64,000 bases of DNA from Ancylobacter rudongensis. Lineage in GTDB: Bacteria > Pseudomonadota > Alphaproteobacteria > Rhizobiales > Xanthobacteraceae. Below are positions 27,062 through 48,612 of the stretch, piece after piece. Positions within the stretch are counted from its first letter, which is position 1; each line of letters begins with the position of its first letter. A program made the position numbers and the translations under genes. The stretch covers positions 62,001 through 126,000 of the forward strand of contig NZ_FMTP01000003.1 in NCBI RefSeq assembly GCF_900100155.1, written 5' to 3'. Under the pieces are notes generated by a model. The model saw only the letters and a program-made list of their open reading frames with translations, did no database searches and was not told the DNA's origin.

Positions 27062-28326
27062 TCGCCCTTCTCCTCTTTGGCGGCTTCGCGCTGTTCCTCA
27101 TCCTCGGCGTTCCCGTCGCTTTCGGCATCGCCCTCGCCGCGCTCGGCGCGATCCTCTATCAGGGCTACCCGATGGCCCTGTTCGGCCAGCGGCTGTTCAC
27201 CTCGGTCGACTCCTTCCCGCTGATGGCGATCCCGCTGTTCATGCTGGCCGGCTCGCTGATGGGCCATGGCGGCATCACACGGCGCATCATCAATCTGGCG
27301 CTGGCGCTGGTCGGCAACATCCGCGGCAGCCTCGCCCATGTCGTCACCACAAGCGGCGTCATCATGGGCGGCGTCTCCGGCTCGGGCGTGGCAGATGTCG
27401 CGGCGCTGGGCTCGGTGATGATCCCGGAGATGAAGAAGCGCAATTACGATACCGGCTTCTCCGCCGCGCTCGTCGCCTCCTCCGGCAGCCTGGCGCTGAT
27501 CCTGCCGCCGAGCATCGCCATCATCATCTATGGCGTGTCCAACCAGGCCTCGATCGGCGACCTGTTCCTCGCCGCCATCGCCCCGGGCATCGTCATCGGC
27601 CTCGGCTTCGCGCTCTACTCCTATTTCTACGCCGTCCGGCACGGCTATCCCACGGAAGGCCGGGTAAGCGGCGCGGAGAAGTGGAAGCGCTTCAAGGAGG
27701 CGAGCTGGGCGCTGATGATGCCGGTCATCATCATCGGCGGCATCCGCATGGGCGTGTTCACCCCCACCGAGGGCGGCGCCGTGGTCGCGGTCTATGCCTT
27801 CCTGGTCGGGCTTTTCGTCTACAAGGAATTCACCCTCGCCGACATCCCGAAGATCTGCATGGAAGCGGCGATCGCCACGGCGGTGATCGCCGCCATCATC
27901 GCCGCGACCTCGCTGTTCGGCTGGCTGCTGACCAATGCCCGGCTGCCGCAGACCATCGCCGGGGCCATTCTCGGCCTAACCGAGAACAAGATCCTGCTGC
28001 TGCTGCTGATCAACGTCATGCTGCTGGTGGTCGGCATGTTCCTCGACAGCGGCCCGGCGATCCTGTTGATGACGCCGATCCTCGGCCCGGTCGCCGCGCA
28101 TCTGGGCGTCGACCCGGTGCAGTTCGGCCTCGTCATGGTGATCAACCTCACCATCGGCCTGCTGACGCCCCCTGTGGGAACCGCATTGTACCTCGCCAGC
28201 AGCATTTCCGGCGTGCCTGTGATGCGGCTGTCGACGGCGATGCTGCCCTTCATCGGTATCATGCTGGCGGTGCTGGGCCTCGTCACCTATGTCCCCGGCT
28301 TCACCAGCTGGGCGCTGTCGAACTAG
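27058..28326 (+). CDS. TRAP transporter large permease (DctM family)
   Basis: A 422-residue protein with about twelve hydrophobic segments. Conserved DctM stretches are visible: FPLMAIPLFMLAGSLMGHGGITRRI, SGVIMGGVSGSGVADVAALGSVMIPEM, LILPPSIAIIIYGV, GVFTPTEGGAVVAVYA, DSGPAILLMTPILGPVA and NLTIGLLTPPVGTALYL. It is the transport channel of the tetronate operon importer. Confidence 0.95.
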   Translation: MIALLLFGGFALFLILGVPVAFGIALAALGAILYQGYPMALFGQRLFTSVDSFPLMAIPLFMLAGSLMGHGGITRRIINLALALVGNIRGSLAHVVTTSGVIMGGVSGSGVADVAALGSVMIPEMKKRNYDTGFSAALVASSGSLALILPPSIAIIIYGVSNQASIGDLFLAAIAPGIVIGLGFALYSYFYAVRHGYPTEGRVSGAEKWKRFKEASWALMMPVIIIGGIRMGVFTPTEGGAVVAVYAFLVGLFVYKEFTLADIPKICMEAAIATAVIAAIIAATSLFGWLLTNARLPQTIAGAILGLTENKILLLLLINVMLLVVGMFLDSGPAILLMTPILGPVAAHLGVDPVQFGLVMVINLTIGLLTPPVGTALYLASSISGVPVMRLSTAMLPFIGIMLAVLGLVTYVPGFTSWALSN

Positions 28327-28346
28327 AGCCTATTCGAGAGAATGCG

Positions 28347-28377
28347 GGGGGCCGGCGCGGCGGACGCGCCGGCCCCC
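28347..28377 (+). terminator. 13-bp perfect GC hairpin before otnC
   Basis: Arms 28347-28359 and 28365-28377 are perfectly complementary around the loop GCGGA. There is no U-tract. It separates the transporter genes from otnC (starting 23 bases later) and may set the relative amounts of the two transcript parts. Confidence 0.55.
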
Positions 28378-35345: not shown

Positions 35346-37259
35346 ATGGCGCTTGTAAAATCCACCAAATTGACCCCAGCCTCCGGCAAGGACGGGGAGC
35401 CGCCCGCACGCCGGGTGGCACGGCCCGCACCGGCCCGCCGTGCCGGCGCGGCGCCGATGGACAAGGTGTCCGAGCGCCTGGCGGCGGCCACCGAGGAACT
35501 GGCCAGCGGACTGATGGAGGCCTCGGCGGCCGCCGAGGAACTGCGCCGCTCGATGGAACTGATCGCGGCGGGCGCGGACGAGGCCGCCGGCGGTTCGCAG
35601 GAGCAGCTCGCCGGCATCAAGGCGGTGGCGGCGACCCTGATCGAGGCCCGCGCCCAGGTGGATGCCGGGCGCCGGCGCACCGAGGCGGTGCAGCTCGTGG
35701 TGGCCGAGACCGCGATCCAGATCACCGCCTCCATCCGCTCCATCGAGCGCAATGGCGAGCGCCAGCACGCCTCGGTGGCGCGGATGGAGGAGCTGGAGCG
35801 CCGGGCGCGCGACATCGGCGCGATCACCGAGACGGTGGGCCGGATCTCCGACCAGACCAACCTTCTCGCCCTTAATGCCGCCATCGAGGCGGCGCGGGCC
35901 GGCGACAAGGGGCGCGGCTTCGCCGTGGTGGCGGAAGAGGTGCGGGCGCTGGCGGAAGTCTCCGAGACGAGCGCCGGCGAGGTGCAGGGCCTGGCCGAGA
36001 CCATCCAGATCCAGGTCCGCTCCGTCGCCGACGGCGTCAAGGAGGGGGCGGAGGCGGCGCGGGCGCAGGCCCGGCTGGGGGCTACCATCCTCGCCGCGCT
36101 GGAGGCGCTGCGCGCCGATATGGGGCACCTGACCAACGGCAGCGACCAGATCGCCACCGCCGCGCTGGAGGCCGAGCGCGCGGCGGCGGAGGCCCAGCGC
36201 GGCGCCGCGCAGATCGCCAGCGTGGCGGAAACACAGGCAGCGGCGGCGACGCAGGCCCAGACCGCCATCCAGCAGCAGGCGCTGTCGCTCGAACAGGGCC
36301 AGGTCGCCGCCCAGGCGCTGGCCCGCGTGACCGACGGCCTGCGCGCCGGCACGGCGGCGGGGGCGCAGGTCGAGCAGATCGCCACCACCGCCGAGGAACT
36401 GTCCGCCACCATCCAGGAACTCTCCAGCGCCGCCGCGCAGATCATGGCGGCGATCGACCAGATCGACCGCGGCTTCCAGCAGCAGGCCGGCGCCACCCAG
36501 CAGACCTCCGCCGCCCTGGCGCAGATCGAGGCCGGCGCCCGCCTCGCCCGGGACAATGTGACGGCGGCGACCCAGCGGGTCGCGGCGATGGAGGCGGGGC
36601 TCAGCGAGAGCCGCGCCGCGCTGGAGCGGCTGATGGCCGGGGTCGAGGCGGCGCTTGCCGGCACCCGCGCCGGCCTCGCCACCCTGCTGAACCTCGAAGA
36701 GCTGGGGCGGCGGATCGAGACGATCGTCGATGCCACCGCGCTCATCGCGGTGCAGATCACCATGCTCGCCGTCAGCGGCTCGGTGGAGGCCGCCCGCACC
36801 GGCGAGGCCGGGCGCGGCTTCGCCCTCGTCTCCGCCGACATACGCAGCCTTGCCCGCGACGCCTCCGAGAGCGTTGGCGGCATCAAGGCCCGGGTGCGCG
36901 CCATTCTCGATCAGGTCGGCTCACTGCGGCGCGACAGCGAGCAGGCCATTCTCGCCGCCGAGGCCGAGATCCAGGCCAATCGCGGCCTGTTCGGCGCGCT
37001 GTCAAAGCTCGATGGCGACGTCGCGGCGCTGAGTGCCGCCAACCGGGCGATCCTGCTCGGCGCGCAGGACATCCTCACCGCCGCCGGCCAATGCGCGCAG
37101 GCGGCGCGCGAGATCGCGGCGACAGCGGAAGAAGCGAGCGCCGCCTCCCGGCAGGCGGCGACGGCTTCCTCGCAGCAGGCGGAAGGGGCGGACGACCTTG
37201 CCGCCGCCATCGAGGAGATCGCCTCGCTCGCCGACGAGCTGCAGCAGCCCGATGTCTGA
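35346..37259 (+). CDS. Soluble chemoreceptor with two signalling hairpin tips
   Basis: About 637 residues, almost wholly helical, with no transmembrane segment and no recognisable ligand domain. The first MCP tip is canonical ([21 protein letters not shown] ... [16 protein letters not shown], about 165-205). A second, degenerate tip follows about 300 residues later ([37 protein letters not shown]). ATG 35346 is preceded by GAGGG; an upstream in-frame ATG at 35322 is possible. First gene of the chemosensory operon; its stop overlaps the triple-CheW gene. Expected to sit in a cytoplasmic array and feed the CheA at 41797. Confidence 0.88.
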
Positions 37260-38817
37260 GCCACGCCCCGCCGCCGGCCGCGCGCCGCTGCGCTTCCTCA
37301 CCTTCCGGGTCGAGGCGGCCCATTATGCGCTGCCGGCCGACGAGGTGGCGGAGGTGGTGCGGGTGCCCGCGCTCGCCCGCCTGCCACAGGCGCCGGCCGG
37401 CCTTCTCGGCATCGGCAATCTGCGCGGCGCCGCCCTGCCGGTCGCCAGCGCCCGCGCCTTGCTCGGCCAGGGCGAGGCGCCCGCCCCGCTCGCCACCGCC
37501 CGCGCCATCGTGCTGCGCGGGCAGAGCCCGGTGGCGCTGGCGGTGGATGCCGTCGGCGAACTGGTGGCAATCGACCCTGACCGGCTGGAGGAGGCGCAGG
37601 CCAGCGCGCTGGTGCGGCCCGGCGAGGCGTTCACCGGCGCCTTCCGCTTCCATGGCGAGCGCGACGTCGCCCGCATTCTCGACATCCTGCCCCTGCTGGC
37701 GACCGCCTTCGCCCCGCGCGCCCGGCCCGCACGCCCCCCTGCGGCGGGCCCCGCGAGCGCGCCGGCGACGCCGGCCACAGCGGCGAGCGCCGGCAAGCTG
37801 ATCAGCTTCGAGGCCGATGGCCAGGAATACGCCCTGCCGATCGAGCAGGTGCGCGAGGTGGTGCCGCTGCCCGACGCCGTGACCACGCTGCCGCTCGGCG
37901 AGGCGCGCGCCTCTGCCACTGAGGCGGTGGCGCGCGGCGTCATGGTCTATCGCGACCGGCTGCTGCCGCTGTTCGCGCTGCGGGCGCTGCTCGCCCTGCC
38001 CCCGGCGTCCGCCACACGCTCGGCCAAGGTGGTGGTGGTGAAGCGCGGCGCGCTCTGGCTCGGGCTGGTGGTCGACCGCATCAATGCCGTGCTGCCGCTC
38101 GATCCCGCGCGGGTCGAGCCGATCCCGCCGGCGCTGGCGGCGCGGGTGGGCGGCGAGGCGCGGCTGAAGGCGATCTTCCGCGCCGGCGATGGCAGCCGGC
38201 TGGTGTCGATCCTCGATGCCCACACTCTGTTCCGGGAGGAGGTCATGCAGCGCCTCGACACGCACGACGCGACCGAGGCCGCCACCGCCGCGAGCGAGGG
38301 CGAGGACGAGGCCTCCTTCCTAGTCTTCCGGCTCGGCGGCGACGAATATGGCCTGCCGATCGCGGCGGTGGACGAGGTGATGAAGGTGCCGGATACCCTC
38401 ACCCGCGTGCCGAAGACCCCGGCCTTTCTGGAAGGCGTGATCAATCTGCGCGGCGCGGTGCTGCCGGTCATCGACCAGCGCCGCCGCTTCGACATGCCGC
38501 CGCTGGCCGAGGCGACGCGCCGCCGGCTGATCGTGCTGCGCAGCGCCCACCACCGCGCCGGCATCCTGGTCGACAGCGTGAGCGAAATCCTGCGCCGCCC
38601 GAAGGATTCCATTGCGCCGGCGCCCGACCTCGCCGGCGAGCCGACGCGGCTGGTTTCGGGCATCCTCAATCTCGACCAGGCCGGGCGGATCATCCTCCTC
38701 CTCGACCCCGACGAGCTGCTGACCCGCACCGAGCGCGGCCTGCTCGACGCCTTCGCCAAGGCAGGGGCGAAAACCGCGACCCGGCCGGCGGGCAAAGCCG
38801 GGCCGAAAAAGGCGTGA
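37252..38817 (+). CDS. cheW: Triple CheW-domain coupling protein
   Basis: A 521-residue protein made of three consecutive CheW domains (about 13-150, 180-330 and 353-490) joined by Ala/Pro-rich linkers. Each has the CheW pattern: [45 protein letters not shown] and [22 protein letters not shown]. The third also has the full [18 protein letters not shown] motif. Ordinary CheW has one domain and about 160 residues. It overlaps the receptor gene before it and the cheB gene after it. It probably bridges several receptor tips or CheA P5 domains at once. Confidence 0.92.
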
Positions 38818-39908
38818 TCAAGCTTCTGGTCGTCGACGACTCGGCGCTGCTGCGCAAACTGCTCGGCGAGGTGTTCACCCAGGCCGGCGGCTTCGAGCTG
38901 CGCTTCGCCCGCGACGGGGTCGAGGCGCTGGAGCAGAACCGCGCCTTCGCGCCCGATGTCATCACCCTCGATCTCAACATGCCGCGCCTCGACGGCCTCG
39001 CCTGCCTCGACCAGCTCATGGTCGAGCGGCCCTGTCCGGTGGTGATGGTGTCCTCGCACACGGAAGCGGGGGCGGAGGCGACGCTGAAGGGGCTGCAGCT
39101 CGGCGCGGTGGATTTCGTGCCCAAGCCCGCCGGCGCGGTGTCGCTGCACCTTCGCGAATGGGCGCCGGCCCTGGTGGAGGCGGTGCGCGGCGCCGCCCGC
39201 GCCCGGGTGCGGCCGAGCCTGCGCCTGCGCGAGAGGGTGCGCCACCGCATCGGCCGTGCCGCTTCCTCCCGTCCCGACGCCATGCCCGCGCCCGGCAGCG
39301 GCGAGGCGCATTTCCCCAACGAGGCGCCTCTGCCCGGCGAAGGGCTGGTGCTGGTCGGCACCTCCACCGGCGGCCCGCCGGCGCTGGAGGCGCTGCTGGT
39401 GCCGCTGCCGGCCGATTTTCCCTGGCCGATCCTCGTGGCGCAGCACATGCCGGGCAGCTTCACCGGCCCGCTGGCGCGCCGGCTCGACACGCTGTGTGCG
39501 CTCAGCATCGTCGAGGTGCGCCGGCCGGTGCCGCTCCAGCCCGGCACGGTCTATATCGGCGCGGGCGATGCCGACCTCATCGTCTCGCGCCGCGCCGGCG
39601 GGCTGGTGGCGATGGCCGCCCCGGCGCAGGCGGATTACCTCTGGCACCCCTCCGCCGACCGGCTGGTGCGCAGCGCGATGGAGCATCTGCCGCCTCGCCA
39701 GCTGGTCGGGGTGCTGATGACCGGCATGGGCAATGACGGCGCCCAGGCGATGGCGATGCTGCGGGCGCAGGGCGGGCACACCATTGCCGAAGCCGAGGAA
39801 ACCGCCATTGTATGGGGCATGCCCGGCGAGCTGGTGAAGGCCGGCGGCGCCGAATTCGTGGTGCCCCTGCCGGACATTGCCGCGCGCCTCGAAAAGATGG
39901 TGCCGTGA
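38814..39908 (+). CDS. cheB: Chemotaxis protein-glutamate methylesterase CheB
   Basis: A 364-residue protein with a receiver domain (VVDDSALLRKLL; phospho-acceptor in LDLNMPRLDG, about residue 53) and a CheB methylesterase domain. The catalytic triad is intact: Ser in GTSTGGPPAL (about 184), His in AQHMPGSFTG (about 211) and Asp in TGMGNDGA (about 307). It removes methyl groups from receptor glutamates, countering the CheR at 40573. GTG 38814 overlaps the CheW gene stop. Confidence 0.94.
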   Translation: MIKLLVVDDSALLRKLLGEVFTQAGGFELRFARDGVEALEQNRAFAPDVITLDLNMPRLDGLACLDQLMVERPCPVVMVSSHTEAGAEATLKGLQLGAVDFVPKPAGAVSLHLREWAPALVEAVRGAARARVRPSLRLRERVRHRIGRAASSRPDAMPAPGSGEAHFPNEAPLPGEGLVLVGTSTGGPPALEALLVPLPADFPWPILVAQHMPGSFTGPLARRLDTLCALSIVEVRRPVPLQPGTVYIGAGDADLIVSRRAGGLVAMAAPAQADYLWHPSADRLVRSAMEHLPPRQLVGVLMTGMGNDGAQAMAMLRAQGGHTIAEAEETAIVWGMPGELVKAGGAEFVVPLPDIAARLEKMVP

Positions 39909-40576
39909 AAGATGGTGCCCCTGAACGCTGGTGCCGTGACATGCCGCTGATCCGCGCCACAGCCGGCGAGGCCGCCGCGCCGCCCTCCGATCGCGCCGCC
40001 GATCGCGCCACCCTCGTCGCCGCGCTCCAAAGCGGCAGCGCCGGCGAACGGCTGCACGCCGCCCGCGCTCTGGCCGCCCTGCCCGGTGCGGAGGCGCCGC
40101 TGAACGCCGCGCTGCAAGTGGAGGCCGACCCGGCGGTGCGCGAGGTGATCTTCACCGCCTTCGCCCGCCGCGCCTCGGAGGAGGCCGCCGACGCCCTGCT
40201 GCCGCTGCTGCGCGCTCGGGAAGCGAGCCTGCGCAATGGTGCGCTCGCCGCGCTTGCCGCCATGCCGGCCCGGCTTTCCGCCCGGCTGCCGGCGCTGCTC
40301 GCCGACCCCGACCCCGACATCAGGCTGCTGGCCTGCGAACTGGCACGCGTCCTGCACTCGCCCGAGGCGACCGCCCTGATGTGCGACGTGGTGGAACGCG
40401 AGAGCGAGCCGAACGTTTGCGCAGCAGCGCTCGACGTTCTCGCCGAGATTGGCGGGCCGCAGGCGCTGCCGGTGCTGGCGCGCCGGGCCGGGCGCTTCGC
40501 CGACACGCCGTTCCTGCGTTTCGCCTTCGAGGTCGCCATCGGGCGGATCGAGGCTTCCTCCGACATAGACCCGTGA
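39905..40576 (+). CDS. HEAT-repeat protein of the chemosensory operon
   Basis: A protein of about 223 residues made of helical repeats of roughly 30 residues, with phrases typical of HEAT/PBS-lyase-like repeats (ERLHAARALAALPGAEAPLNAAL; VREVIFTAFARRASEEAADALLPLL; RNGALAALAAMP; IRLLACELARVL). There are no catalytic motifs. GTG 39905 overlaps the cheB stop; ATG 39941 is an alternative. It is coupled on both sides to cheB and cheR, so it may be a scaffold for the adaptation enzymes. No standard chemotaxis system needs such a protein. Confidence 0.8.
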   Translation: MKDGAPERWCRDMPLIRATAGEAAAPPSDRAADRATLVAALQSGSAGERLHAARALAALPGAEAPLNAALQVEADPAVREVIFTAFARRASEEAADALLPLLRAREASLRNGALAALAAMPARLSARLPALLADPDPDIRLLACELARVLHSPEATALMCDVVERESEPNVCAAALDVLAEIGGPQALPVLARRAGRFADTPFLRFAFEVAIGRIEASSDIDP

Positions 40577-41418
40577 GCGCGCGCGTGACCGACGAGGATT
40601 TCCGGCGCCTGTGCGAGTTTCTCTACCGGCGCAGCGGCATGGTGTTCACCGAGGCCCGCCGCTACTATGTCGAGCGCCGCCTTTCGGAGCGCATGCGCGC
40701 CACCGGCACCCCCTCCTTCGCCAGCTATTTCGCCCGCCTGCGCAGCGACCAGTCGGGGGAGGTCGAGCCGTTCATCAACGCCTTCACCGTCAACGAGACC
40801 TATTTCTTCCGCGAGGAGCACCAGCTCCAGTGCCTGAGCACCGATCTCCTCTCCGCGCGCCTCAAGGAGCGCCCGGCGGGGCGGCCGATCCGCATCTGGT
40901 CGGTGCCCTGCTCGACCGGCGAGGAGCCCTATTCCATCGCCATCTGGCTGCTCGAACACTGGCCGCAGGTCGACGCCTTTGAGATCGAGATCATCGGCTC
41001 GGACATCGACACACGGGCGCTGGAGGCGGCGCGGGCCGGCCTGTTCGGCCGCCGGGCGCTGATGCGGCTGCCGGAGGCGCTGGTCGCCAAGTATTTCGAG
41101 CCGGTGGATGATGAGCACTGGCGGCTGATCGCCGATCTGCGCCAGTCGATCGGCTTTTCCACCGTCAATCTGGTGGATCTGGCCCAGACCCGCGCCCATG
41201 GCCGCTTCGATGTCATTTTCTGCCGCAACGTGCTCATCTATTTCGACGAGGCCTCGCGGCGCATGGCGGCGGAGAACCTGTATGAGAACCTGCTGCCGGG
41301 CGGCTTCATCTGCCTGGGCCACAGTGAATCGATGAGCCGGATCTCGCCCCTGTTCGAGGTGCGCCGCTTTGCCGACGCCATCATCTACCAGCGGCCGGGG
41401 GAGCGCGGGGATGGCTGA
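40573..41418 (+). CDS. cheR: Chemotaxis protein methyltransferase CheR
   Basis: A 281-residue methyltransferase. An N-terminal helical domain (FRRLCEFLYRRSGMVF, FTVNETYFFREEHQL) is followed by the SAM-binding domain (RIWSVPCSTGEEPYSIAIWLLE, IIGSDIDTRALEAAR, FDVIFCRNVLIYF, HSESM). It methylates receptor glutamates using SAM. The GTG start overlaps the HEAT gene stop, and its own stop overlaps the cheY start. Confidence 0.95.
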   Translation: MSARVTDEDFRRLCEFLYRRSGMVFTEARRYYVERRLSERMRATGTPSFASYFARLRSDQSGEVEPFINAFTVNETYFFREEHQLQCLSTDLLSARLKERPAGRPIRIWSVPCSTGEEPYSIAIWLLEHWPQVDAFEIEIIGSDIDTRALEAARAGLFGRRALMRLPEALVAKYFEPVDDEHWRLIADLRQSIGFSTVNLVDLAQTRAHGRFDVIFCRNVLIYFDEASRRMAAENLYENLLPGGFICLGHSESMSRISPLFEVRRFADAIIYQRPGERGDG

Positions 41419-41800
41419 GCCGGCACGCGCGCGCATTCTGGTGGTCGACGATGCCAGCCTCGTCAGGCTGTATTACCGGCAGGCGCTGGAGGCCGCCGGC
41501 TTTGTCGTCGAGGAGGCGCTGAACGGGGTCGAGGCGCTGGAGAAGCTGCTGCAGGCGCCGGCCGATCTCGTCATTGTCGACGTCAACATGCCGCTGATGG
41601 ACGGCATCACCTTCCTGCGGGCGCTGCGCCGTCAGCCGCTGCCGCTCGCCGCGCTGCCGGCGCTCGTCACCAGCACCGAGGCCGGCCCTGCGGATATCGA
41701 GGCCGCCCGGGTGGCCGGGGCCAATCTCTATCTGGTCAAGCCGCTGGAGCCGGCGGCGCTGGTGCTCTACGCCCGGCTGCTGTGCGGGGTGCCGGGGTGA
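41411..41800 (+). CDS. cheY: Single-domain response regulator, CheY-like
   Basis: A 129-residue receiver with the acidic pair VVDDASLVR, phospho-acceptor Asp57 in VIVDVNMPLMDG, Thr/Ser switch in LVTSTE and Lys in LVKPLEP. ATG 41411 lies inside the cheR end (8-bp overlap). It may be the output of the CheA encoded next, or a phosphate sink, since a second receiver occurs in the same operon. Confidence 0.92.
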   Translation: MAEPARARILVVDDASLVRLYYRQALEAAGFVVEEALNGVEALEKLLQAPADLVIVDVNMPLMDGITFLRALRRQPLPLAALPALVTSTEAGPADIEAARVAGANLYLVKPLEPAALVLYARLLCGVPG

Positions 41801-44007
41801 ACGAGTTCATCGAGCAGTTCCTCATCGAGGCGCGCGAGCTGGTCGAGCAGGGCACCGCCGACCTGCTGGCGGCGGAGGAGCGCCCGCGCGACGCGGCGGC
41901 GATCGACGGCGCGTTTCGCGCCTTCCACACGCTGAAGGGCTCGGCCGGCATCATCGATTTCGCCGCCATGGCCCGCGCCCTGCACGCGGCGGAGGACGCG
42001 CTGTCGCAGGTGCGCGCCGGCGCGGTGCCGATCACCGGCGCCCTGATCGGCCAGTGCCTCACCTGCCTCGACCAGGTGGTGCACTGGCTCGACGCCATCG
42101 AGGCCACCGGCGAGCCGCCCGACGCGGCCGAGCGCGACGCCGACGCGGTGATCGCGCTGTTTGGTGCGGCAGAGGCCGCCGCGCCGCCTGCCGCCACCGG
42201 CCCGGCCGCGCTCGATGCCTGGCTGGCGACGCTTCCGGCGGCCGAGCCCGCAGGCGGGGCCCGCTGCGCCTTCGCCTATACCCCCGCCGAGGACGCGTTT
42301 TTTCGCGGCGAGGACCCGCTCGCCACCGTGCAGGCGCTTCCCGGCCTGCTGGCCCTCGACCTCGTCCTTGACGGGGCGACGGTGGACCCGGCCGAGATCG
42401 ACCCGTTCCATTGCCGGCTCACCCTCTTCATCCTCTGTTCGGAGCCCCGCGCCCGGCTGGAGTTGGCCTTTGCCGGCCTGTCGGGCACGGTCGACTGGCG
42501 CGATCTCGCCCCGCCGGCGGCGCCCGGCGCGGGGACGCCCGTCGCCGCCGGCCAGCTGATCGCGGCGCAGATCGCGCTGCTGCGCGGGCCGGAGGACGAG
42601 GGTTCTGCCGGCCGGCGGGCAAGCGCCCTGCGCGCCGCATTGCAGGTGCTGCGGGCCAGCGGCCGCGACGTTGAGGCCGCCGCGCTGGAGCGTCTCGCTG
42701 ACGCCGGCGCGACGCCACAAAGGCTCGCCGACGCGCTGGACGAAGCGCGGGCCGATACGCACGCGGCGCCCTCCCCGTTCGTCCCCGGGACGGAGCCGGT
42801 GATCGCCGATGTCGGGGCGCGCTCGCTGCGGGTCGATGTCGAGCGCATCGACGCGCTGGTCCGCCTCACCGGCGAATTCACCGTGCTGAAGACGCAGGCC
42901 GCCCATCATGCCCGGCTGGCGGCCGAGACCACCAGCACGGGCGAGGCCAGGGAACTGGCCGCCAAGGAACTGGCGACGCAGCTGAAATCCCATCACGAGA
43001 CGCTGGAGCGGCTGGTCGGCGCGCTCCAGCATGCCGTGCTCGGCATCCGCGTGCTGCCGCTGCGCCATGTCTTCCAGCGCCTGCCGCGGCTGGTGCGCGA
43101 CATGTCGGACGCGCTGGGCAAGCCGATCCGCCTCGTCATCGAGGGCGAGGAAACCGAGGCGGACAAGGCCATCGTCGAGGCGCTGTTCGAGCCGCTGCTG
43201 CACATTCTGCGCAACGCCGCCGATCACGGCATCGAGCCGGCGGGCGCCCGTGCCGCCGCCGGCAAGCCGGAAACCGGCATCGTCGCGGTGCGGGCCCGCC
43301 GCGTCGAGGACCGCCTCACCATCGAGGTCGAGGATGACGGCGCCGGCATCGACACAGCCCGCCTGCGCGCCCGCGCCGGGGAGCGCGGGCTGGCCAGCCC
43401 CGCCGTGCTGGCGGCGATGAGCGAGGAAGAGGCGCTGGACCTGATCTTCGCCCCCGGCTTCTCCACCCGCGACGAGGTGACAGGCTATTCCGGGCGCGGG
43501 GTCGGCATGGACGCGGTGCGCGTCGCCCTGGCCCGGCTCGGTGGCCGGGTCCGAGTTCACAGCCGGCCGGGCGAGGGCACGCGCCTGGCGCTGAGCCTCC
43601 CGGTCAGCGTGATGAAGACCGATGTCCTCTCGGTGGAATCGGGCGGGCAGGTGCTGGGCATTCCGCTGGAGGCGGTAGTGGAGACGGCGCGCCTCCCGCG
43701 CAGCGCCATCTCCCGCATCGGTGCGGCCAGCGTCTTCGTCTGGCGCGAGCGCACCCTGCCGCTGATCGACCTCGCTCAAGCCATGGGCCTTGCCCCCGCG
43801 CCGGCCGGCGGCGGCGACGCGCGTATCGTCATCACCCGCCTCAATGGCGAACTTGGCGGGCTGGAGGTGGAGCGGCTGGGCGCCCGCATGGAGGTGATGC
43901 TGCGGCCGCTGGAAGGGCTGCTCGCCGGCCTGCCCTGCCACGGCACCACCCTGCTCGGTGATGGCCGCGTGCTGATCGTCCTCGATCTCGAGGCGTTGCA
44001 GCCATGA
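41797..44007 (+). CDS. cheA: Chemotaxis histidine kinase CheA
   Basis: A 736-residue kinase with an Hpt (P1) domain at the N-terminus, His44 in FHTLKGSAG, a non-standard middle region (about 130-330) in place of a clear P2, dimerisation P3, ATPase P4 with HILRNAADHGIE, VEDDGAGID and GYSGRGVGMDAV, and a CheW-like P5 (from about 605, DVLSVESGGQVLGIPLEAV). GTG 41797 overlaps the cheY stop. It should phosphorylate the two receivers and CheB of the operon. Confidence 0.95.
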   Translation: MNEFIEQFLIEARELVEQGTADLLAAEERPRDAAAIDGAFRAFHTLKGSAGIIDFAAMARALHAAEDALSQVRAGAVPITGALIGQCLTCLDQVVHWLDAIEATGEPPDAAERDADAVIALFGAAEAAAPPAATGPAALDAWLATLPAAEPAGGARCAFAYTPAEDAFFRGEDPLATVQALPGLLALDLVLDGATVDPAEIDPFHCRLTLFILCSEPRARLELAFAGLSGTVDWRDLAPPAAPGAGTPVAAGQLIAAQIALLRGPEDEGSAGRRASALRAALQVLRASGRDVEAAALERLADAGATPQRLADALDEARADTHAAPSPFVPGTEPVIADVGARSLRVDVERIDALVRLTGEFTVLKTQAAHHARLAAETTSTGEARELAAKELATQLKSHHETLERLVGALQHAVLGIRVLPLRHVFQRLPRLVRDMSDALGKPIRLVIEGEETEADKAIVEALFEPLLHILRNAADHGIEPAGARAAAGKPETGIVAVRARRVEDRLTIEVEDDGAGIDTARLRARAGERGLASPAVLAAMSEEEALDLIFAPGFSTRDEVTGYSGRGVGMDAVRVALARLGGRVRVHSRPGEGTRLALSLPVSVMKTDVLSVESGGQVLGIPLEAVVETARLPRSAISRIGAASVFVWRERTLPLIDLAQAMGLAPAPAGGGDARIVITRLNGELGGLEVERLGARMEVMLRPLEGLLAGLPCHGTTLLGDGRVLIVLDLEALQP

Positions 44008-44017
44008 GGGAGAAGAC

Positions 44018-44290
44018 ATGACGGTACGGTTTGCCGCCGACGGCACGATCCATCTCGAAGGCCTCTGCGGCAGCGAGGAGGCGGAGGCGCTGCTGGCTCA
44101 GCTCATCGCCACGCCCGGCGCCGTCGTCGACTGGCAGGGCTGCGAACAGGCGCACACGGCGGTGGTGCAGGTGCTGCTCGCTCTGCGCCCACGGCTTCGC
44201 GGCGTGCCGGCCAGCGCCTTTCTCGCCCGCCATGTAGCGCCGGTGCTGAACCGCCCGCCCGCTGGCGGCGTGGCCCGGCTTGAGGCATAG
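44018..44290 (+). CDS. Small STAS-like domain protein
   Basis: A 90-residue protein with the predicted beta-alpha layout of a STAS domain: a beta strand pair at the N-terminus, then VVDWQGCEQAHTAVVQVLLALRP, which matches the central 'strand, D-x-S/T loop, helix' of anti-sigma-factor antagonists. The ATG follows GGGAG. It sits 10 bp after cheA, and its stop touches the next ATG. If the domain call is right, it could link the array to a partner-switching output. The assignment rests on pattern and length only. Confidence 0.6.
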   Translation: MTVRFAADGTIHLEGLCGSEEAEALLAQLIATPGAVVDWQGCEQAHTAVVQVLLALRPRLRGVPASAFLARHVAPVLNRPPAGGVARLEA

Positions 44291-44341
44291 ATGCTCACTC
44301 GTGACCCACAGCGCGACAATGTCCGCCGGAGCCGTCTCCCC

Positions 44342-44719
44342 ATGCCGTTCCAAGTTCTCATCGTCGACGACAGCAAGCTCGCCCGGATGGCGATCGCCAA
44401 GGCCATGAACAAGCTCCATCCCGACTGGGCGCGCAGCGAGGCCAGCAATGCCGACGACGCCCTCGCCCTCGCCGGCCAGCAGCCCTTCGATATCGCCCTT
44501 TTGGACTTCAACATGCCCGGCCGCGACGGGCTGCAGCTGGCGTCCGAGCTGCGCGATTTGATGCCCGGCATCGCCATGGCCATCATCTCGGCCAATCATC
44601 AGAAGGAAATTATCGCCCAGGCGCATGATGTCGGCGCGATATTTCTCTCCAAGCCCTTGACGGAAGACGAGTTGGGCCAATTTCTCGCTCAGGTGCAGCT
44701 GTCCAAGGGAAGCATGTGA
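44342..44719 (+). CDS. Second single-domain response regulator
   Basis: A 125-residue receiver with LIVDDSKLARM, phospho-acceptor Asp55 in ALLDFNMPGRDG, ISANHQ and FLSKPLTEDE. ATG 44342 starts right at the domain. ATG 44291, directly after the STAS gene stop and behind GAGG, would add 17 residues and cannot be excluded. It is coupled to the cheC gene (GTGA), which suggests that CheC dephosphorylates this receiver. Confidence 0.9.
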   Translation: MPFQVLIVDDSKLARMAIAKAMNKLHPDWARSEASNADDALALAGQQPFDIALLDFNMPGRDGLQLASELRDLMPGIAMAIISANHQKEIIAQAHDVGAIFLSKPLTEDELGQFLAQVQLSKGSM

Positions 44720-45378
44720 GCAACCAGAGCCCCCTTGCCCTCAGCGAGCTGCAGATCGACGCGCTGACCGAGCTGGTCAATCTCGGCGTCAGCCGGGCGG
44801 CCGTGAGCCTGCGCGAGCTGGTCGGCCGGCAGGTGCTGCTCTCCGTGCCGCGGGTGACGCTGCTCAGCCGCGACGACGCGATCGAGATCGTCGGCGCCAC
44901 CGAGGAGAAGCAGCTGGTCGCCGTCCACCAGCTGTTCGAGGGCGACATCACCGGCCGCGCCTTGCTGATCTTCCCGGAGATCAACAGCCTGGAACTGGTC
45001 CGTGCCGTCACCGGCGGCGGGCTGCCGCTGGAAGACATCATCGAGCTGGAACAGGAAGCGCTGGCGGAAACCGGCAACATCATCCTCAATGGCTGCCTGG
45101 CGACCATCGCCAACATGCTGCACCGCAGCCTCAAAATGTCGTTGCCGGAAATCCTGCGCGGCGACAGCCACGACCTGTTCGAGCTGGCGCCGGCGCCCGA
45201 ATCTGGCGATGTGGTGCTGTTCCTCTACATCAACTTCGCCGTGCGCGAGCGCGACATTCGCGGCTACATCGCGATGCTGATGGACATGCCCTCGCTGGCC
45301 GCGCTGGAAGGGCTGCTCGACGAGTTCATCGAGCGCACAGCGGGCGGAATGGCGCCTGAGGCCAATGCCCCTGTCTGA
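44716..45378 (+). CDS. cheC: CheC-type phosphatase
   Basis: A 220-residue protein with the CheC/FliY pattern of two internally repeated active-site helices, each with E-x-x-N: LTELVNLGVSRAAVSLREL near residue 18 and LAETGNIILNGCLATIANML near residue 117. Family members dephosphorylate CheY-P. GTG 44716 overlaps the stop of the preceding receiver gene. CheC is mostly known from Bacillus, Thermotoga and archaea; it is not part of the standard alphaproteobacterial set. Confidence 0.85.
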   Translation: MSNQSPLALSELQIDALTELVNLGVSRAAVSLRELVGRQVLLSVPRVTLLSRDDAIEIVGATEEKQLVAVHQLFEGDITGRALLIFPEINSLELVRAVTGGGLPLEDIIELEQEALAETGNIILNGCLATIANMLHRSLKMSLPEILRGDSHDLFELAPAPESGDVVLFLYINFAVRERDIRGYIAMLMDMPSLAALEGLLDEFIERTAGGMAPEANAPV

Positions 45379-47704
45379 CGATCATCTGGCCCACGCCATT
45401 GTCGACGGGCTGGATGGCGGCGTCATCGTCGTCGACCGCGCCGGGCGCGTGGTGGTGTGGAACGCGTGGATCGCCGCCGCCACTCGCCGCCCCGCCGCCG
45501 AATGTGTCGGCCAGACGCTGCCGGCGCTGTTTCCCGCCTTGCCGGCGCGCTTTCATTCCGCGCTGGCGGAAAGCTTCGCCTCCGGCGCCGCCAGCCTGCT
45601 CACCCATTCGCTGCATCCCGCCGTGTTGCCGCTGCGCACCCGCGCCGGCCTTCCCATGGTGCACAACACCTCGATCCGGGCGCTGGGGCCAAAACCGCAC
45701 GACTTCTGCCTGGTGCAGGTGGTCGATGTCACCGCCAGCGCCAATCGCGAGCGGGTGCTGCGCGAGCGGCAGAATGCCCGCTACCACGCGGTGGTCGACA
45801 GCGCCCATGACGCCATATTGACGCTCGACGCCGACGGGGTGATCCAGCTCGCCAACCCGTCCGCCGCCCGCCAGTTCGGCACCGCGCCCCAGGCACTGGT
45901 TGGCGCCACCCTGTCGACGCTGCTGGAGGAGCAGGAGGCCTGGCGCGCCGCCTGGGACAGCGTGCGCGCCGGCACGCCGCTCACCCGCCCGGTGGAAGTC
46001 ACCGCCCGCCGGCCGGACGGGGCGCCGAGCCATCTGGAACTCACCGCCTCGCGCTGGTCGAGCGATGGGCGCTTCTTCGTCACCGCCATCCTGCGCGATG
46101 TCAGCGAGCGCAAGGCGGCCGAGGCCGAGCTGCGCGGCCTCAACCTGACGCTGGAGCGGCGCGTGGCCGAGCGCACCGCCGACCGCGACCGCATGTGGCG
46201 CCTGTCCACCGACATCATGGTGGTCGGCCGGCTCGACGGCGTGGTCAACGCCACCAACCCGGCCTGGACCCGCATCCTCGGCTGGGAAGCCGAGCATCTC
46301 ACCGGCGCCAATCTTCTCGATTTCGTCCTGCCGACCGACCGGCCGCGCCTGCGCGAGATTCTGGCGGCGCTGAGCCAGGAGACCGCGCCGCAGCTCTTCG
46401 CGCTGCAGCTGCGCGCCCGCGATGGCGGTGTGCGCTGCATCGAATGGAGCGCGGTGGCCGCCGACGACCTGCTGCAGGCGGTGGGCCGCGACATCACCGC
46501 CGAGCGCGAGGCCGAGGAAGCGCTGCGCCGCACCGAGGAAGCACTGCGGCAGGCGCAGAAGATGGAGGCGGTCGGCCAGCTCACCGGCGGCATCGCGCAC
46601 GACTTCAACAACATGCTCACCGGCGTCATCGGCGCCGTCGACATCATGAAGCGGCGCCTCGCCTCCGGGCGCTTCGACGATCTCGACCGCTTCCTGGAGG
46701 TCGCCTCGGTCTCGGCCCAGCGCGCGGCGGCGCTGACCCAGCGCCTGCTTGCCTTCTCCCGCCGGCAGTCGCTGGATTCGCGGCCCGTGCACATCAATGC
46801 GCTGGTCGGCTCGCTGCACGACCTGCTGAGCCGGACGCTGGGTGAATCGATCGCGCTCGACATCGCCTGCGACGAGCGGGTGGGCTGGGGCACCGCCGAT
46901 GCCAACCAGCTGGAAAGCGCCATCCTCAACCTCGTCATCAATGCCCGCGACGCCATGCCCAATGGCGGGCGCCTCACCGTCAGCACGCGCCAGGCCGTGC
47001 TGGAAGCGCGCGAGGTGGCCGGCACGCCGGAGGCCAGGCCCGGCCGCTACGTCGTGATCGCCGTCACCGATACCGGCACCGGCATGACGCCCGACGTGCT
47101 GAGCAAGGTGTTCGAGCCGTTCTTCACCACCAAGCCGGTCGGGCTGGGCACCGGCCTCGGCCTGTCCATGGTCTATGGCTTCGCCCGCCAGAGCGAGGGC
47201 CATGTCGCGATCAGCAGCAGCCCGGGCAAGGGCACCACGGTGGAGCTTTTCCTCCCCGCCGCCGAACCGCCGGGCGAGACGGATGCCGACCTGCCGGCGG
47301 CGCTGGCCGAGGGCGACGGCCAGAGCGTGCTGCTGGTCGAGGACGACGCCTCGGTGCGGGTGCTGGTGGCCGACATTCTCGCCGAGCTCGGCTATGCCGC
47401 CATCGAGACCTCGGACGCGCCGGGCGCCATCGTCGAGCTCGCCTCCGGCCGCGACATCCAGCTGATGATCTCCGATGTCGGCCTGCCCGGCATGAATGGC
47501 CGCGAATTGGCCGAGGTGGCGCGCCGCCACCGCCCGGACCTGCCGATCCTGTTCCTCACCGGCTATGCCGGCGACACGGTGGCGCGCTCGCAGGTGCTCG
47601 GCACCCACATGGAAATGCTGACCAAGCCCTTCGCCATCGAGACGCTCGCCGCCAAGATCGAGGAAATGATGGCCGCCGCCGCCTTCCGGGCCGGCCAGCG
47701 CTAG
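45365..47704 (+). CDS. PAS-containing hybrid histidine kinase
   Basis: A 779-residue cytoplasmic protein without transmembrane segments. Three PAS-like domains are visible (about 8-125; 138-255 with HDAILTLDADGVIQLANPSA; 280-385 with VNATNPAWTRILGWEAEHLTG), joined by coiled coil. A HisKA domain (GGIAHDFNNMLTG), HATPase_c (NLVINARDAMPNGG, DTGTGMT, FFTTKPVGLGTGLGLS) and a C-terminal receiver (LMISDVGLPGMNG) follow. ATG 45365 overlaps the cheC end by 14 bp. Last gene of the chemosensory operon; it may cross-talk with CheA or be its downstream output. Confidence 0.93.
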   Translation: MPLSDDHLAHAIVDGLDGGVIVVDRAGRVVVWNAWIAAATRRPAAECVGQTLPALFPALPARFHSALAESFASGAASLLTHSLHPAVLPLRTRAGLPMVHNTSIRALGPKPHDFCLVQVVDVTASANRERVLRERQNARYHAVVDSAHDAILTLDADGVIQLANPSAARQFGTAPQALVGATLSTLLEEQEAWRAAWDSVRAGTPLTRPVEVTARRPDGAPSHLELTASRWSSDGRFFVTAILRDVSERKAAEAELRGLNLTLERRVAERTADRDRMWRLSTDIMVVGRLDGVVNATNPAWTRILGWEAEHLTGANLLDFVLPTDRPRLREILAALSQETAPQLFALQLRARDGGVRCIEWSAVAADDLLQAVGRDITAEREAEEALRRTEEALRQAQKMEAVGQLTGGIAHDFNNMLTGVIGAVDIMKRRLASGRFDDLDRFLEVASVSAQRAAALTQRLLAFSRRQSLDSRPVHINALVGSLHDLLSRTLGESIALDIACDERVGWGTADANQLESAILNLVINARDAMPNGGRLTVSTRQAVLEAREVAGTPEARPGRYVVIAVTDTGTGMTPDVLSKVFEPFFTTKPVGLGTGLGLSMVYGFARQSEGHVAISSSPGKGTTVELFLPAAEPPGETDADLPAALAEGDGQSVLLVEDDASVRVLVADILAELGYAAIETSDAPGAIVELASGRDIQLMISDVGLPGMNGRELAEVARRHRPDLPILFLTGYAGDTVARSQVLGTHMEMLTKPFAIETLAAKIEEMMAAAAFRAGQR

Positions 47705-47715
47705 GGGCAGGCGCG

Positions 47716-48612
47716 ATGGACACCCGCCATCTCGAAGCCTTCCGCGCCGTCTATGAAAACGGCTCGATGAGCGCTGCGGCCGTGCTGCTCGGCAAGTCGC
47801 AGCCGGCGATCAGCAATCTCATCGCCCGGCTGGAGGACGAGATCGGGCTGAAGCTGTTCCACCGCGCCCATGGCAGGCTGGAGGCGACGCCGGAGGCCGA
47901 GACCTTCTTCGCCGCCATCGTGCGCACGCTCGACGCGATGGAGCGCACGCTGGCGGTCTCGCGCAATCTCAAGGGCCTGTCCTCGGCGACGCTGCTGATC
48001 GCCAGCCCGCCGGGCCTCGCCACCTATCTGCTGCCCCCCATCATCGCCGATGTGCTGAAGGAGAATGCCGGCGCCACCGCCCGCTTCATCACCCGCTCCT
48101 CCTATGCGGTGCGCGATCTCGGCACCATCGGCGCCTTCGATGTGGGGTTCGCGGAACTGCCGATCGACATCCATGTCGCCTCGCTGGAGCTGTTCGAGGT
48201 GGCGTGCATGTGCGTGATGCGGGCCGACCATCCCCTTGCCGGGGAGCGCTGCGTCGGGCCGGAGCAGCTCGATTCCCAGCCCTTCGTCACGCTGTTTCCC
48301 GAGCACATCACCCATATCGCGGCGGCGGAAGCCTTCTTCGAAGCGCAGGCGCACTGGAACGTGGTGGCGGAGGTGGAGTTCTTCGGCACCGCCTGCGTGC
48401 TGGTGCAGCAGCTTGGCGCGGTGACGCTGGTCGATCCCGCCACCGCCCGCTTCTTCCAGGCGATGGGGCTGGTGGCGATCCCGTTCCGCCCGCTCGTGCC
48501 CTATCGCTTCGGCATGTTCCGCCCGAGCACCCGCCCGCCCTCGCGCATCTCGGTCGCCTTCATGGAGCGCTTCCGCCGCACCGTGGCGCCTGACCTCGCC
48601 GCGCCGCGCTGA
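47716..48612 (+). CDS. LysR-family regulator (OccR/NocR-like group)
   Basis: A 298-residue LysR protein with HTH GSMSAAAVLLGKSQPAISNLI (about 17-37) and an effector domain. The opening MDTRHLEAFRAVYENGSMSAAA resembles regulators of opine and amino acid catabolism. It is 11 bp after the hybrid kinase gene, but its role is more likely with the catabolic genes to the right, because a LysR-type dyad (48677-48695) lies upstream of the first of them. The effector is unknown. Confidence 0.9.
   Translation: MDTRHLEAFRAVYENGSMSAAAVLLGKSQPAISNLIARLEDEIGLKLFHRAHGRLEATPEAETFFAAIVRTLDAMERTLAVSRNLKGLSSATLLIASPPGLATYLLPPIIADVLKENAGATARFITRSSYAVRDLGTIGAFDVGFAELPIDIHVASLELFEVACMCVMRADHPLAGERCVGPEQLDSQPFVTLFPEHITHIAAAEAFFEAQAHWNVVAEVEFFGTACVLVQQLGAVTLVDPATARFFQAMGLVAIPFRPLVPYRFGMFRPSTRPPSRISVAFMERFRRTVAPDLAAPR

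Follow-up and report, generated by a model that had tools for sequence, protein, structure and literature searches.

The window, a stretch of 64,000 nucleotides from Ancylobacter rudongensis (contig NZ_FMTP01000003.1, positions 62,001 to 126,000), contains an eleven-gene chemosensory operon, very probably of class F9; the receiver and receptor that normally close such an operon appear to have been exchanged for a receiver, a CheC and a PAS hybrid kinase. All eleven genes lie on a single strand between positions 35346 and 47704 and overlap at eight of their ten junctions, which bears out the proposal of an earlier note on this DNA that they form one chemosensory unit. Open reading frames (ORFs) were read from stop to stop, and the features were assigned as follows.

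35346..37259, + strand: DosM-type soluble chemoreceptor with two signalling tips, near residues 174 and 474 (Pfam MCPsignal, two stretches)
37252..38817, + strand: CheW3, three concatenated CheW domains (PF01584, three stretches, 300 bits)
38814..39908, + strand: CheB, receiver and methylesterase (Pfam, NCBIfam, motifs)
39905..40576, + strand: HEAT-repeat protein, a normal F9 member (HEAT_2, 59.7 bits)
40573..41418, + strand: CheR methyltransferase (Pfam)
41411..41800, + strand: CheY1, F9-type receiver before CheA (Response_reg, 87.7 bits)
41797..44007, + strand: CheA, complete, with P1 His44, HATPase boxes and CheW domain (Pfam, motifs, tree)
44018..44290, + strand: STAS-fold protein, a normal F9 member
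44291..44341, + strand: 51 bp separating the F9 core from the docked cassette (ORF coordinates)
44342..44719, + strand: cassette receiver (REC2), SANHQ motif at residue 83 counted from the ATG at 44342 (motif, tree)
44716..45378, + strand: CheC with two intact phosphatase motifs (Pfam, motifs, structure-chain match)
45365..47704, + strand: hybrid kinase, PAS1-PAS-PAS-HisKA-HATPase-receiver (Pfam; H-box AHDFNN, receiver Asp)
45383..45781, + strand: PAS1, the domain common to kinases and cyclases after CheC (profile comparisons)

Loci, genomes and contigs used for comparison are designated L, G and C, respectively. A search for CheA in one genome per species, performed with a short-pattern method that may miss kin, yielded 76 loci, the best match being Ancylobacter aquaticus DSM 101, whose CheA is 63% identical. 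Local profiles gave the order double-tip receptor, W-W-W, CheB, HEAT, CheR, CheY, CheA, STAS and receiver, and all seven core features (double-tip receptor, triple CheW, CheB, HEAT, CheR, CheA and STAS) were present in 48 of the 76. Triple CheW was encoded in one frame in 55 loci, accompanied by HEAT in 54 and by STAS in 50 of these; many of the remaining 21 were truncated where a contig ended, and L078, L083 and L084, at the least, do not belong to F9. Judged from record titles and tree labels, F9-type loci are hosted by several classes of Pseudomonadota, by Nitrospirota, Thermodesulfobacteriota and Myxococcota, and by one Fibrobacterota metagenome-assembled genome (MAG). A published survey describes DosM with tandem signalling domains and the concatenated triple CheW as unique to F9, counts full F9 systems in 64 of 2781 species, and notes a tendency for F9 to occur together with another che system and flagella (PMC9321776). 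The tandem-domain DosM, the triple CheW and the full gene set including cheA and cheY were all found here, and a second che cluster together with FliM/FliN matches elsewhere in the genome agrees with the coexistence trend. In the CheA tree, which is unrooted and contains few outsiders, the window CheA groups with CheAs of F9 operons. On these sequence comparisons, genes 1 to 8 are almost certainly an F9 system. The earlier note held that finding the same order as a described flagellar or pilus chemotaxis class would refute its reading, and for genes 1 to 8 this has happened as far as the order goes, the neighbourhood comparison having identified it as that of F9; nor are the HEAT and STAS proteins additions, as had been supposed, since their frequency among the triple-CheW loci makes them normal members of the class.

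The receptor was analysed further using an AlphaFold2 model (predicted local distance difference test score 88.6), in which helices span residues 37–184, 186–333 and 338–633. The arms of the model measure about 148 residues per tip, or some 42 heptads per hairpin, with class 44H as the comparison, and the modelled arm length is as expected for a two-tip rod. No sensory domain was found in DosM by the Pfam scan and no clear membrane segment was found, one borderline stretch of 19 residues from residue 459 (mean hydropathy 1.73) lying just before the second tip.

Published descriptions of related systems were compared as far as their accessible parts allowed. Cluster I of Vibrio cholerae is an F9 system, purely cytoplasmic and two-layered, and deletion of its cheA is described as giving no detectable phenotype under standard conditions. 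It shares with the window the double signalling-domain receptor (DosM, VC1403), triple CheW (VC1402), CheB, CheR, CheY and CheA (VC1397), as well as a separate flagellar system alongside, but by the published descriptions it has the F9 end of receiver and receptor where the window has receiver, CheC and hybrid kinase. Che2 of Rhodospirillum centenum, also F9, resembles the window in its triple CheW and in having two small unknown proteins, to which the HEAT and STAS proteins presumably correspond; it controls lateral flagella biosynthesis and not taxis, mutants being hyper-flagellated or without flagella and still chemotactic (PMC2890560). Its CheA is, unlike that of the window, fused to a receiver, and the accessible text mentions neither CheC nor a companion kinase. 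The F9 system Che2 of Azospirillum brasilense is described in part as having a CheC in the operon, as here. In its relative A. argentinense (L098) the CheC and kinase genes point away from the core, and just upstream of dosM there is a second receiver-CheC pair (27215–28376), with [ST]ANxQ in the receiver. Further literature used for comparison was likewise consulted as excerpts (PMC7534058, PMC11940527, PMC6943060, PMC8561660, PMC9855816, PMC11481889, PMC7666153, PMC4618731, PMC9109919).

The end of the operon was examined in 83 loci with a STAS gene, of which 15 were docked (receiver, CheC and kinase after STAS), 60 were undocked with at least 2.5 kb available at that place, and 8 were too short. 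L098 was counted among the 60, its cassette being on the other strand, and L011, which is docked yet has no recognisable STAS, stands outside the 83. A tail receptor was present in 51 of the 60 undocked loci versus none of the 15 docked ones, and a tail receiver with the F9 motif (TTE) in 49/60 versus 0/15; every docked tail, that of L141 included, had a receiver with [ST]ANxQ. Over a partly different set of loci this motif was found in 27/27 cassette receivers, 0/50 F9-tail receivers and 0/67 receivers in the CheY1 place. All 27 cassette receivers fell into one group of the receiver tree (Shimodaira–Hasegawa-like approximate likelihood ratio test, 97), a tree built from a short alignment and with many open forks. 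Assignment of the window's second receiver as an F9 CheY was rejected by motif and tree; as it carries [ST]ANxQ and belongs to the separate group, it is not an F9 receiver and arrived with CheC and the kinase. Among 56 CheC entries a receiver was found for 42, with [ST]ANxQ in 39 and TADIQ in 3 (L166, L167 and L168), and several of the 14 without one are second CheC copies or distance misses. The sequence evidence makes it highly probable that the usual F9 tail of receiver and receptor has been swapped for a cassette of receiver, CheC and PAS1-effector. The operon had earlier been called unusual in composition, a description that survives for this tail, which is unlike other F9 ends, and falls for genes 1 to 8, which are the described F9 set; the hybrid kinase, previously taken as a lone addition, is the third gene of the cassette with receiver 2 and CheC.

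CheC carries the motif D/E-x3-E-x2-N-x22-P, which we take to be the CheC active-site consensus, at residues 15 and 114, and D, E, N and P of site 1 and E, N and P of site 2 were invariant in 14 of 14 aligned sequences. It matched CheC chain 1xkr with an E value of 2e-19. The chains 1xkr and 2f9z are CheC of Thermotoga maritima, from a flagellar system with CheD; family and both aligned active-site stretches are shared with the window CheC, which differs in having a receiver and a PAS effector as its partners. Both CheY1 and HEAT were lost in 7 of 17 CheC-bearing F9 loci, with receiver, CheC and kinase kept, so the cassette receiver is the sole stand-alone receiver in those seven operons.

Docked operons with identical gene order were found in three alphaproteobacterial orders, the named hosts being Ancylobacter, a Bradyrhizobiaceae MAG, a Phenylobacterium MAG, a Hyphomicrobiales MAG, Sphingobium, Novosphingobium, Agrobacterium vitis and Rhizobium sp. 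L51/94. In Agrobacterium vitis (L097) the docked F9 operon is on plasmid pAvCG78b, typed as conjugative, and is flanked on both sides by IS6-family transposases. Another class of the phylum is represented by L149 (genome G935), a docked F9 with HEAT, CheY1 and a PAS1 kinase. A single origin of docking was tested on the CheC tree, where the F9-linked rows need four changes, of which at least three are forced by starred branches; part of these changes comes from the Azospirillaceae, in which L099 and L100, cassettes without adjoining F9 genes, nest with docked ones, and part from the second CheC of L098 beside dosM, which belongs to another lineage. Docked rows did not form one clade in the CheA tree either, which is unrooted and whose docked set included L136, a non-F9 CheA. 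It would be conceivable that nothing beyond a shared promoter links an ordinary F9 system to the phosphatase and the two-component kinase next to it, with no joint mechanism, the more so as F9 clusters are reported, in the available text, to have moved by transfer many times (PMC9321776) and docked copies occur on plasmids; the latter come from a plasmid-only collection and give no measure of how often. The identical order in three orders and the complete exchange of receiver and receptor make this account improbable.

Neighbourhoods of CheC were fetched from all 13 other genomes of the class with a CheC and from 20 of 54 further genomes of the phylum with a match. The receiver-CheC pair recurred in these away from F9, and the next gene in many began with the PAS type of the window kinase, followed by enzymes of several kinds: HisKA kinases with AHDFNN or SHEIRTP, HisKA_2 kinases, or GGDEF (L101, L155, L158 and L161). 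A PAS1 profile was built from ten members (eight docked loci, L098 and L099). At 75 bits or above it matched 25 of 34 other CheC-adjacent genes versus 0 of 73 other kinases and cyclases of the loci (best 16 bits), the genes of L098, L133 and L155 having been placed by hand as following CheC; among the nine remaining CheC-adjacent genes, three scored 33–44 bits and six had no PAS1 match. Over 385 genomes of the class, a PAS1 profile built partly from members in those genomes, and informative only in that other matches were lacking, gave 13 matches, 12 of them above 100 bits, and 11 of these 12 lay directly after CheC on the same strand (exception G313). CheA was found within 4 kb of 10 of 32 non-F9 CheC loci, a figure with no base rate for comparison. 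No description of the cassette or of the tail swap was found among the matches listed in open-licence literature. The data suggest, tentatively, that receiver, CheC and PAS1-effector are an undescribed portable cassette in which a receiver/CheC switch read by PAS1 would control the enzyme behind it, and which, in alphaproteobacteria and at least in L149 beyond them, took over from the F9 array's own receiver and receptor; the array would then drive a kinase or second-messenger enzyme and not a motor.

Several related arrangements were observed in the fetched stretches. In L101 (8618–10571, a Phytobacter plasmid) receiver, CheC and PAS1-diguanylate cyclase form a compact trio, and the stretch carries no further annotated che gene. 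In L152–L154, L156, L160 and L162–L165 the cassette adjoins a CheA gene and an F9 core is lacking, and a receiver-GGDEF gene is also found beside cassette and CheA in L154, L156, L160, L163, L164 and L165. L145 (G446, contig C24) is a partial F9 locus with receptor, triple CheW, CheA and STAS, and no CheB or CheR was found between them.

In the mechanism proposed for the window, DosM and CheW3 would form a two-layer cytoplasmic array controlling CheA, and CheA would phosphorylate the cassette receiver as well as CheB and CheY1. CheC would dephosphorylate the cassette receiver, and the state of receiver and CheC, read via PAS1, would set the activity of the hybrid kinase, which might signal by phosphorelay to an unlinked regulator. 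Docking to F9 would make CheA the phosphate source of the cassette, and the seven F9 loci that have lost CheY1 are compatible with this. Since receiver, CheC and PAS1 recur together and the enzyme varies, the simplest reading is that receiver and CheC are the regulator and PAS1 the reader. This path from CheA through receiver and CheC to the PAS1 kinase is a plausible but provisional proposal.

A somewhat less likely wiring would have the cassette receiver phosphorylated natively by the hybrid kinase, with CheC doing no more than resetting the receiver and docking letting CheA and hybrid kinase converge on it. The third gene is a kinase in most fetched cassettes, and there is precedent for such wiring in Che3 of R. 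centenum, where, by the accessible account, CheY3 is phosphorylated by CheS3-P alone and CheA3 targets a receiver of CheS3 (PMC3868531). Che3 is like the window in combining a Che cascade with a companion hybrid kinase, CheS3, and a single receiver, but it belongs to the alternative cellular function (ACF) class and the accessible text mentions no CheC (PMC3868531). Against the kinase as the source of receiver phosphate, receiver, CheC and PAS1 are all retained in four cassettes whose third gene encodes a GGDEF cyclase instead of a kinase.

An F9 core with a portable cassette as its output remains the explanation that we consider best overall for the sequence data, at a probability of about 0.5, and the following observations weigh against it. 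Control could run the other way, from the hybrid kinase to the receiver. No PAS1 match was found in the docked loci L096, L097, L102, L128, L144 and L150, in each of which a kinase was found, so that PAS1 is not needed for docking, and L103 likewise had none; three more non-F9 cassettes matched PAS1 weakly (33–44 bits). GGDEF was found within 5 kb of 14 of 32 non-F9 CheC loci, again with no base rate for comparison, and the Ancylobacter genome has only two GGDEF matches, both on other contigs. Finally, the CheC-kinase pair of A. argentinense is not only divergent from the core, but the receiver adjoining it is without [ST]ANxQ.

The STAS protein has a SpoIIAA fold, and a search of the PDB with the STAS profile found no significant relative. 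His46, Ala48 and Gln51 (window numbering) were invariant in 42 rows and were present in 80/82, 80/82 and 82/82 sequences, respectively, of a larger alignment. Thr47 of the window occupies the start of a helix, presumably the SpoIIAA phosphoserine site, as assigned by helix position and not by residue-level structure alignment. The fold and this residue would suit the partner switch suggested as an example in the earlier note. Phosphorylation of the STAS protein would in such a switch free a sigma factor or a kinase of the RsbW type, on the model of the CrsA/CrsR system in the Che1 (F7) locus of Shewanella oneidensis. The helix-start position is, however, Thr in 28, Ser in 2, Ala in 25 and Pro in 23 of the 82 F9 sequences; with Thr or Ser in just 30 and Ala or Pro in 48, a conserved phospho-switch is unlikely. 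No partner-switch kinase or PP2C was found by Pfam among the eleven genes, the genome not having been searched for PF13581 anti-sigma kinases. The one SpoIIE-type match of the genome, a receiver-PP2C protein, is on another contig, and the surrounding 14 kb contained no match to the F9 STAS profile, which is not a general STAS profile. A partner switch at this operon is thus very improbable, and a structural or binding role of the STAS protein in F9 is more likely.

Elsewhere in the Ancylobacter genome, the other che cluster (L085, contig C12, 8858–16299) encodes a CheA with two CheW domains and a receiver, and a single pair of FliM/FliN matches lies about 14 kb beyond it, on a contig other than that of the window; the window unit is distinct from this cluster, as the earlier note had it. 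All five other receptors of the genome have an EVK tip. Other receptors in F9 loci read EVR in 23 of 27 cases (EVK in 2, unread in 2) and DosM tips read EVR in 50 (unread in 14), a weak hint from sequence that none of the five joins the F9 array. On contig C7 (L170, 6246–9734) the gene after that of a receiver-PP2C protein encodes a PAS hybrid kinase that has two receivers. Within the window, a LysR-type regulator gene (47716–48612) lies on the same strand and starts 11 bp past the hybrid-kinase stop; it is probably unrelated, because its best other match among the compared loci scored 64 bits and was in the undocked locus L074. A promoter and terminator scan of the operon gave nothing informative.

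Triple CheW was matched in 6 of 297 genomes of the order, comprising three docked operons (window, G432 and G480), two with receptor tail (G283 and G662) and the partial locus of G446. In 385 genomes of the class there were eight matches at 1e-40, five above 400 bits and three at 140–147 bits over part of the profile; four of the five were docked (window, G014, G246 and G348) and G283 was not. Cassette CheC was found in 14 of the 385 genomes and in 57 of 398 genomes of the phylum. The one other genome of the genus and the nine other listed family members had no triple-CheW match, which marks the F9 system as accessory in this genome.

The operon most probably governs a lifestyle or appendage programme, such as flagellum biosynthesis or cyclic di-GMP (c-di-GMP), and not a motor switch, which upholds the earlier expectation of an output other than swimming. 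Flagellum biosynthesis is a candidate because the sole F9 phenotype found is that of R. centenum Che2, and c-di-GMP because cyclase-type cassettes exist; control through a second messenger, as the earlier note had considered, fits the relatives with a diguanylate cyclase as third gene and is only possible for this operon.

The operon represents a described class in full, and its exchanged output arm is absent, among the matches listed, from the open-licence literature searched. The variant is that of a chemosensory class exchanging its entire output arm, and it offers a handle on F9 function, because the output arm lies in the operon and, in other settings, is seen with an enzyme of recognisable type. 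The cassette may prove of greater interest than the operon. If receiver and CheC do control the enzyme behind PAS1, CheC would be part of a general adaptor, beyond its role as a reset phosphatase.

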